DNA of 64,000 bases from Chryseobacterium arachidis. Its GTDB lineage: Bacteria > Bacteroidota > Bacteroidia > Flavobacteriales > Weeksellaceae. The DNA lies in contig NZ_FQUT01000001.1 of NCBI RefSeq assembly GCF_900129245.1, forward strand, positions 434,001 through 498,000. The letters are read 5' to 3'. A model generated the notes under the pieces. The model saw nothing but the letters and a program-made list of their open reading frames with translations. It was not told where the DNA came from and did no database searches. Below are positions 38,670-61,375 of the stretch, one piece after another; position 1 is the stretch's first letter; every line of letters begins with the position of its first letter. The position numbers and the translations under genes are program-made.

Positions 38670-38737
38670 TATTAATAAATAAAATGTTTAGGCTAAGCAA
38701 CTTACACGGACTTCGTCAGAGGTTGAATAACAGGTTG

Positions 38738-41696: not shown

Positions 41697-41714
41697 TTTT
41701 CGATATCATTTTTC

Positions 41715-41746
41715 AAAAAAAACGGGCTTTGTAGTCCGTTTTTTTT
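41715..41746 (+). terminator. Rho-independent terminator
   Basis: An A run plus CGGGCT pairs with AGTCCG plus a T run around TTGT, 19 bases after the metallophosphatase stop. The palindromic repeat element begins at the next base. Confidence 0.8.
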
Positions 41747-41845
41747 GGAGCTGTTTCCCGCTCTCCGCACTCGCTATTTTTTAGTTTCGGCGCGGCAGCG
41801 GAGCTGCCGCGCCGAAACTAAAAAATGAGCTCAGACAAAGCTGCG
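41747..41845. repeat. REP-like palindromic element A
   Basis: The element starts GGAGCTGTTTCCCGCT (41747-41762). Its core is a perfect 24-bp inverted repeat, arms 41776-41799 and 41803-41826 around GGA, with a GC-rich centre (GGCGCGGCAGC) and an AT-rich outer part. It ends GCTGCGATCGGGGCTAG by 41845. The same ends with a different core occur at 61099-61193. No gene is inside it. Confidence 0.85.
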
Positions 41846-41888
41846 ATCGGGGCTAGTGATTTGCCAATTCTGAAATTGATAGATGTAA

Positions 41889-42266
41889 TTACTCATCAGT
41901 AGATTTCAATGCCCAGGCAATCAGTGGGGCCTGCATAAAAAGTCTGGCAAACCTTTGATTATCCGTATTCAGCCCAAAAGAATCCCTTCTGTTTTTATAT
42001 TGGGCAATATTTCCGGGAAGCACGGCTGCAAAAAATCCGGCTACGATCTTTCCCATTGTTTTCCTATATTTTTTAGGAGTGGCAATTACCGCTGCTCCTA
42101 ATGCAATTTCTGCAATTCCGGAATAGACGACGGTATCATCTTTTTTCAGAGGAACCCATTCGGGAACCTGAGCTTGGAATTCTTTTCTTGCAAAAGTGAG
42201 GTGGCCAATTCCGGCAGTGATCAGAAATGTACCCAACGCAATTCTTGAAATGTTTTTCGTTTCCAT
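41889..42266 (-). CDS. DoxX-like small membrane protein
   Basis: The protein has 125 residues from the ATG at 42266 (METKNISRIALGTFLITAG). It has about four hydrophobic segments, with IAEIALGAAVIATPKKYRK and GKIVAGFFAAVLPGNIAQY giving a pattern seen in DoxX-like membrane proteins. The frame is open upstream to 42302, but conserved sequence begins at METKN. Such proteins are associated with redox or membrane stress in some bacteria; here nothing further can be said. It stands alone, divergent from scoA. Confidence 0.75.
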   Translation of the reverse strand: METKNISRIALGTFLITAGIGHLTFARKEFQAQVPEWVPLKKDDTVVYSGIAEIALGAAVIATPKKYRKTMGKIVAGFFAAVLPGNIAQYKNRRDSFGLNTDNQRFARLFMQAPLIAWALKSTDE

Positions 42267-42399
42267 ATTGTAATATTTTATGATGGTGATGTCTGGAGTC
42301 AACCAAAATTCAGACCAGATGAAAATTCAAATAGTTACAAAATACAATAGATATGAGAAAAAGTATTAAATTTAAGCCAACAGAAAAATCTAATATTTC

Positions 42400-61098: not shown

Positions 61099-61193
61099 GG
61101 AGCTGTTTCCGGCTTTTCACTATATCTTTTGGGTTACGGGCTCCGCTTTGCTCCGCCCGCAACCCAAAAGGATGCCGCTGCAATCCGGGCTAG
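61099..61193. repeat. REP-like palindromic element B
   Basis: It starts GGAGCTGTTTCCGGCT (61099-61114) and ends GCTGCAATCCGGGCTAG (61177-61193), 15 of 16 and 15 of 17 bases identical to element A at 41747. Its core arms, CTTTTGGGTTACGGGC (61126-61141) and GCCCGCAACCCAAAAG (61155-61170), have one mismatch, enclose a 13-base loop and are unrelated to the core of element A. Confidence 0.85.
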
Positions 61194-61218
61194 GGTGGAG
61201 GTCATTCTTTTCAGGATC

Positions 61219-61252
61219 TGTCGTTGCGAGGAATGAAGCGACGAAACAATCT
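61219..61252 (+). repeat. GTCATTGCGAGG-type repeat, copy 1
   Basis: This 34-base copy reads TGTCGTTGCGAGGAATGAAG and then GCGACGAAACAATCT-like text. It matches the reverse complement of 61342-61375 at 30 of 34 positions. Confidence 0.75.
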
Positions 61253-61341
61253 CATAAGATAGTTAATATAATTTTAAAACTTTTTTTCATCGCTTAGATT
61301 CTTCCAAAATGACAAAGTTTATGTTTAATAAGGAATTAAAA

Positions 61342-61375
61342 AGATTGCTTCGTCGCTTCGCTCCTCGCAATGACA
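61342..61375 (-). repeat. GTCATTGCGAGG-type repeat, copy 2 (inverted)
   Basis: On the minus strand this reads TGTCATTGCGAGGAGCGAAG then CGACGAAGCAATCT. With copy 1 it forms a large inverted pair with an 89-base centre. I recall near-identical sequence from intergenic repeats of unrelated bacteria; not checked here. Confidence 0.75.

Follow-up and report, generated by a model that had tools for sequence, protein, structure and literature searches.

The window, meaning the whole 64,000-nucleotide stretch of Chryseobacterium arachidis DNA analysed here, carries two copies of a dispersed Chryseobacterium repeat that is represented in Rfam as the candidate RNA Flavo-1 (RF01705). Element A is flanked by two convergent genes, of which one is phosphatase-like with a secretion tail and the other has 137 codons and no Pfam match. 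Element B has a membrane transport gene and priA as its neighbours. For both elements the best reading strand is the minus strand (Table 1).

Table 1. Positions of the two repeat copies, their parts and an adjoining hairpin in the window
Feature	Position	Strand	Basis or score
Element A (Flavo-1-type repeat; inner module of type A)	41747..41856	-	RF01705 33 bits, gathering 42
Element A foot, 5' half (CTAGCCCCGATCGCAGC, minus strand)	41840..41856	-	end motif, foot pairing
Element A foot, 3' half (GCGGAGAGCGGGAAACAGCTCC, minus strand)	41747..41768	-	foot pairing
Element A perfect hairpin core, 24-bp arms (41776-41799 / 41803-41826), 3-nt loop	41776..41826	.	arms 100% complementary
Terminator-like hairpin, separate, just before element A (base 41747 common), between convergent genes	41714..41747	+	
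Element B (Flavo-1 repeat; inner module of type B)	61099..61193	-	64.2 bits; cmscan span 61102-61195
Element B hairpin core, 16-bp arms, one G.T wobble on minus strand	61126..61170	.	

An earlier note on this DNA placed element A at 41747-41845. The start stands, but the end must be moved to 41856, where the right-end motif closes, and the two ends occupy 41747-41762 and 41840-41856. The perfect arm pair described there is real: all 24 of 24 positions are complementary (100%). The arms of element B are 94% complementary, and their single G.T wobble is seen again in most type B copies that have long arms. RNA-fold z-scores are -5.6 (plus strand) and -5.8 (minus strand) for element A, and -1.5 and -3.3, respectively, for element B. 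Relatives, both those that carry element A and those that do not, likewise have a hairpin in the gap occupied here by the terminator-like hairpin, often with another sequence.

With the RF01705 covariance model, element B scores above the gathering score over its full length. Element A falls below this threshold, so it is a Flavo-1 relative by its ends and not a member by score. The earlier note had regarded the ends as conserved between the two elements, and they do recur well beyond this pair. A genome-wide search for the end motif GGAGCTGTTTCCNGCT with up to two mismatches gives 62 matches, compared with none for the reversed control. Within the window, the right-end motif has two exact matches and one with three mismatches (0.04 expected). 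The left 12-mer alone is not significant there, with seven matches at up to two mismatches against 3.3 expected and with seven of 100 shuffles reaching the same number. The source genome contains at least 57 Flavo-1 matches at E up to 1, of which 42 are above the cut-off; this count comes from scoring 150 of 1387 candidates, and element A is not among the 57. Matches occur in 40 of 59 genomes, and the copies per genome range from 0 to 52 across 36 genus members. Among the matches listed for the type A pattern, all 116 retrieved stretches are from Chryseobacterium. No match to this pattern was found in viral contigs, or to element B in the plasmids searched.

Flavo-1 is an extragenic, high-copy palindrome, as REP elements are. 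A MITE would have terminal inverted repeats and a target duplication; in Flavo-1, neither end is the inverted repeat of the other. Of 52 copies in the source genome, three in open reading frames of 81-99 codons and five at edges were set aside. The others fall between tandem (29), divergent (8) and convergent (7) genes, compared with 21, 8 and 8 in a background sample. Between tandem genes, 20 copies point against the gene direction and nine with it (p 0.06), which indicates a lean without a fixed orientation. There is also no significant replication polarity in four closed genomes, where 86 copies lie with the fork and 63 against it (p=0.07; 149 of 150 listed rows, drawn from 183 matches, the dropped row being the second strand of one place). 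Copies are often retained at the same site across species, and among 31 candidate rows for empty sites none has clean junctions.

The bases beyond both ends recur among copies, and the true element may therefore be longer than the span given here. Many copies of the source genome share GAC at -11 to -9 and CCC at -3 to -1 in the 45 bases 5' of the foot, some have ATATTTTC near -36, and TAAAAAA is frequent after the 3' end.

At least four types of inner module (A to D) are enclosed by a foot that is common to all of them. When read on the minus strand, the majority of copies have CTAGCC near their start and AGCTCC near their end. The sequences inside these ends depend on the type: in type A, GAGCTCA precedes and TAGCGAGTG follows a long hairpin; in type B, the hairpin stands between CATCC and GATATAG; and the corresponding motifs are AATCC and GATTG in type C, and ACCCCACAGC and GCGAGGAGTATGAG in type D. 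Elements A and B differ in their cores because they belong to two of these types. The description of their cores as unrelated is thus correct for this pair. It does not extend to the family, in which many copies share each core type, and since A and B represent two sub-types with many copies each, the pair alone does not demonstrate any exchange.

The foot covaries across module types. Its base pairing was examined in 168 distinct end pairs. They come from the 216 entries in which both ends could be read, out of a set of 263 where some copies are listed twice and two are fragments. Positions 5p6 and 3p9 pair in 164 of the 168 (shuffle maximum 114), and each of the four Watson-Crick types is common (CG 106, TA 20, AT 17, GC 13). 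Pairs 5p10-3p5 and 5p14-3p1 are formed in 165 and 163, against shuffle maxima of 109 and 126. Three of the seven foot pairs vary little or rise barely above shuffles. When the module types are read together, the foot thus retains both the conserved bases and the base pairs of RF01705. Over all seven pairs there are 25 G.U and five A.C combinations, counted in related copies that are not independent. Because of this excess, one particular strand seems to fold, either as RNA or as single-stranded DNA. Such a strand preference is present in the foot and absent from the type A hairpin.

Modules that differ within constant ends are found at the locus of element B. The element lies there between the same two genes in 14 of the 30 species in which both flanks are readable. 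It carries a type B module in G000, G024, G026, G063, G074 and G081, and a type C module in G035 and G011. In a further clade of six species, whose flanking genes are 83-87% identical, G062 and G019 have type B, and G013, G072 and G033 have type D. By eye, the element of G014 resembles a shortened type D. The two type B elements and those of G013 and G072 share an exactly identical 16-base 5' end (TAGCCCGGATAGGAAC) and an exactly identical 16-base 3' end (GTGGATAGCCGGATTA). Among the 263 other entries, these sequences occur zero times and once, respectively, and never together. The ends in G033 and G014 differ by a few bases. An alignment by eye of the outer flanks of G013 and G062 extends as far as the element. 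A single change would be sufficient if G062 and G019 were sisters; two are needed on the gene tree that was found (node supports 0.66-0.94). At this locus, therefore, species carry different modules between identical ends, which supports the proposal that the core is replaced as a unit within constant ends. No donor copy was identified for any of the module swaps.

Module differences also occur among close species. Comparison of G018, G082 and G001 (108 of 121 matches retrieved) yielded 56 orthologous pairs, 47 of them with both flanks, in 33 loci; the grouping into loci and several type calls were made by eye. The type differs, A versus B, at three of the 33. At one of them (G082:C33 and G001:C70), there is identity in the right flank starting at the element edge, whereas the last ~50 bases of the left flank do not align; the differences in the ends amount to three bases and one compensated pair. 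At the second, the ends and near flanks differ too, and the third has one matching flank only, so that re-insertion is possible at both. No module exchange has to be postulated at the locus of element A. All four relatives that have the element there (G026, G111, G120 and G155) keep type A. The type D elements of G013, G014, G019, G021 and G033, which had been considered as exchange products, sit elsewhere, on the 5' side of the gene downstream of this locus.

In five species (L182, L183, L185, L190 and L321), a type D element with a long, non-palindromic core stands 5' of the ortholog of 41889-42302, across this gene from the locus of element A. Several relatives without Flavo-1 at the locus of element A (L107, L111, L169 and L185) have another repeat there, whose hairpins are of the GAGTCCCGAAGGGACGAC type. 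Short hairpins resembling these border the IS200-like genes (flanks of L001-L003).

The evolution of the type A hairpin was followed in 101 elements from 28 genomes, 17 of them from G000, after a filter for at least 70% pairing whose failures were not counted. The arms are perfectly complementary in 83 of the 101, with a median length of 25 bp. Of 2428 pairs, 2409 (99.2%) are Watson-Crick, eight are G.U, six are A.C and five are other combinations. Loops come in both orientations (TTT 23 and AAA 18; TTC 14 and GAA 14; TCC 3 and GGA 2), with other loops in nine perfect hairpins. Since these orientations are balanced at 40:34 (p 0.56), the hairpin lies either way about equally.

Changes in type A arms between sister species are mostly mirrored. 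In G026 and G111, whose flanks are 95% identical, the element is the same except for one base near the edge and a flipped loop. Within the element, L297 and L282 differ only by one mirrored substitution, and L196 and L292 only by a mirrored change of several bases that also alters the length. Of 12 ortholog pairs compared, the exceptions are L308 and L281, which have short arms and unmirrored changes near the tip, and L306, which carries a mismatch. The earlier suggestion that the core co-evolves as a unit is thus supported by mirrored arms and by loops that flip between sister species.

In 56 orthologous pairs, the similarity of the basal arm (0.693) hardly exceeds that of unrelated copies (0.642), whereas that of the two ends does (0.817 and 0.893, compared with 0.744 and 0.860). 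The tip, defined as the 12 bases beside the loop, was compared within and between genomes. Different loci of one genome have more similar tips (0.703 versus 0.632, z 3.4, 0 of 1000 label shuffles), and this excess is absent from the basal arm (z 0.6) and from the ends (z -1.1 and -0.7). A test controlled by orthologs is weak, giving a mean of +0.053 for the tip with 35 of 56 values positive, alongside +0.032 for the 5' end (33 of 56), +0.009 for the basal arm (32) and +0.004 for the 3' end (31). The sequence GCGCGGCAGC stands beside the loop in at least seven of the 17 G000 copies, and CGGCGGCGGC in at least nine of 14 copies from C. soldanellicola. With modest confidence, these data are taken to mean that tip sequences spread between loci.

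Type B hairpins also undergo mirrored changes, amid which G.U pairs outnumber A.C pairs by 27 to 1 in the 42 of 47 cores analysed. Most of these are one recurrent wobble. Their long loops face one way when judged by eye. Mechanical copying of one arm from the other should erase a recurrent G.T wobble, and selection on pairing would therefore also act in type B.

Taken together, these patterns are probably best explained by a dispersed repeat in which a selected foot carries a hairpin module that is turned over by template switching and by exchange between copies. The foot is formed by the two ends, which pair in short helices that surround conserved unpaired bases, and it would be maintained by selection. 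Such selection makes it probable that something recognises one folded strand of the foot, as RNA or as single-stranded DNA. The inner module would be free to turn over as long as it remains a hairpin. Mirrored changes and flipped loops may arise when replication switches templates, so that one arm is copied from the other. This process is described, as arm homogenisation with inversion of the spacer or loop, for yeast coding genes and for RNA genes in PMC8604942 and PMC8794818, and the changes in type A hairpins fit template switching between inverted arms. When the whole module changes, the source might instead be a copy at another locus, reached by conversion or template switching, with the constant ends serving as homology.

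The existing annotation implies another explanation, namely that Flavo-1 is a structured non-coding RNA. Its stems would then evolve through ordinary compensatory substitutions, with selection acting on the RNA. Covariation and strand bias in the foot, the wobble in type B and the RF01705 match of element B all favour this possibility. Against it stand the near-parity of G.U and A.C pairs in the almost entirely Watson-Crick type A core, the mirrored length changes and the flipped loops. Furthermore, copies between tandem genes lean against the direction of transcription and have no fixed orientation. A survey of Flavobacterium psychrophilum, PMC9723704, reports matches 'indistinctly' in sense or antisense, many of them outside transcribed regions, which argues against a uniform transcript. 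An RNA explanation for the whole element is accordingly rather unlikely, although it retains some weight. For the family as such, this survey and the strand-neutral type A core make a role as DNA at least as likely as a role as RNA.

Enzymatic mobility offers other routes to the same pattern. The earlier note named a REP/RAYT-type system or a site-specific hairpin cassette. In a REP-type system, a Y1/RAYT transposase recognises the ends and moves the element. Copies are indeed extragenic, palindromic and highly variable in number within the genus, one RAYT-like gene and three of the IS200-like kind are present in G000, and the numbers of Flavo-1 copies and Y1 genes correlate across all 59 genomes (Spearman 0.62, p 2e-7). 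This correlation presumably reflects small genomes that lack both. Among the 36 genus members it is 0.23 (p 0.17), and four genomes have 13-37 copies without a Y1 match (for example, G019 with 37 and G024 with 28). The search that had been proposed, for a Y1/RAYT gene flanked by the same ends, gave none: Flavo-1 ends are absent within 1.5 kb of all four Y1 genes of G000, which are flanked by other hairpins. None of 426 other loci carries a relative of these genes in a tblastn screen with the four G000 proteins as queries, by which distant Y1 genes could be missed. With Y1 genes that lack these ends, and a copy number that is not significantly correlated with Y1 number in the genus, such a system is highly improbable. 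A dedicated recombinase that swaps hairpin modules between copies by way of their constant ends would account for the exchange at the locus of element B, where both ends are retained. But a search covering Y1 genes revealed no enzyme, and type differences are uncommon (see the 33 loci above), a rate compatible with ordinary conversion, which leaves this explanation improbable as well. Finally, element A is situated between convergent genes and adjoins a terminator-like hairpin, as might be expected of an intrinsic terminator. The T-run is on the wrong side for this function, being 5' of the stem with an A-run 3' of it on both strands, and eight of 44 copies in the source genome lie between divergent genes, much as in the background (8 of 37). 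A terminator function for the core is therefore rejected.

A more speculative extension of the selected foot and replaceable hairpin is that a dedicated cellular activity exchanges and re-copies modules within the foot, making Flavo-1 a genome-wide set of interchangeable single-stranded hairpin cassettes. Although distinctly unlikely, this arrangement would mean that the tip tends to be common to a species as if it were matched to a species-specific partner.

The family itself is already known; its behaviour, a selected foot with a replaceable hairpin, is new. Flavo-1 was listed as a candidate RNA by Weinberg 2010 (PMC2864571). The present elements have the same ends, helix order and phylum, but Rfam models one inner module, below whose threshold type A scores, and the flipping of perfect hairpins and the exchange of modules appear here and not in the one table row that this paper devotes to Flavo-1. 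Like the GTAG/CGTC superfamilies of REPs, as characterised in PMC3733652, the elements are short extragenic palindromes with many copies and with stems or loops that vary from species to species. Unlike these REPs, they are longer (about 66-126 bp), have no GTAG/CGTC tag (the minus-strand 5' end is mostly CTAG) and have no RAYT gene found beside their copies. The repeats of TnpA_REP subclass 2.6, according to PMC6006769, are also hairpins repeated through genomes of Bacteroidetes. The G000 gene L004 has motifs (NHLH, WQ and YIHQNP) that fit this subclass, but the hairpins beside it are not Flavo-1. Template-switched inverted repeats, in the work on yeast coding genes and RNA genes cited above, share arm homogenisation and loop inversion, and differ in that the repeats described here form a bacterial family whose foot is conserved. 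In the open PMC literature, no function for Flavo-1 was found, nor any account of it as a repeat whose cores can be exchanged.

Viewed as a selected foot with a free hairpin, Flavo-1 provides a natural record of perfect hairpins that keep their pairing while their sequences change. At one and the same site, sister species differ by substitutions and length changes that are mirrored in both arms, and by the direction of the loop. The question of how compensatory substitutions arise becomes testable in bacteria with such material, and covariation in stems of this kind need not imply selection on an RNA.

Several further arrangements of copies were observed. On one G000 contig (C13, L072-L074), five Flavo-1 variants occupy five places between 6690 and 52363, on one strand and within 46 kb. 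They carry changed ends (GCGTCAGGGATTG, CGTTAGCGATAG or GCGTGAGCGATTG), one of them has weak matches to three Paraclostridium plasmids, and the cluster is perhaps a mobile region. At G082:C43:27829-28082 (L388), two elements of different type have their 5' ends facing each other, 58 bases apart, and the stretch retrieved from the sister species G018 (L344) contains only one of the two. The G024 assembly breaks within the hairpin of element A's ortholog (the end of C12 and the start of C6; L311 and L312), and the G000 contigs C14, C17, C22, C24 and C29 start less than 1 kb from a copy (near base 240-910). Perfect hairpins may thus break assemblies and be undercounted. In the window, an inverted pair of the type TTGCGAGG...GCGACGAA lies just past element B (61220-61255 / 61341-61375), and similar sequences are also found near some other Flavo-1 copies. 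The window also contains an Rfam match (35.8 bits) to the L19-Flavobacteria ribosomal protein leader at 38698-38725 on the minus strand.
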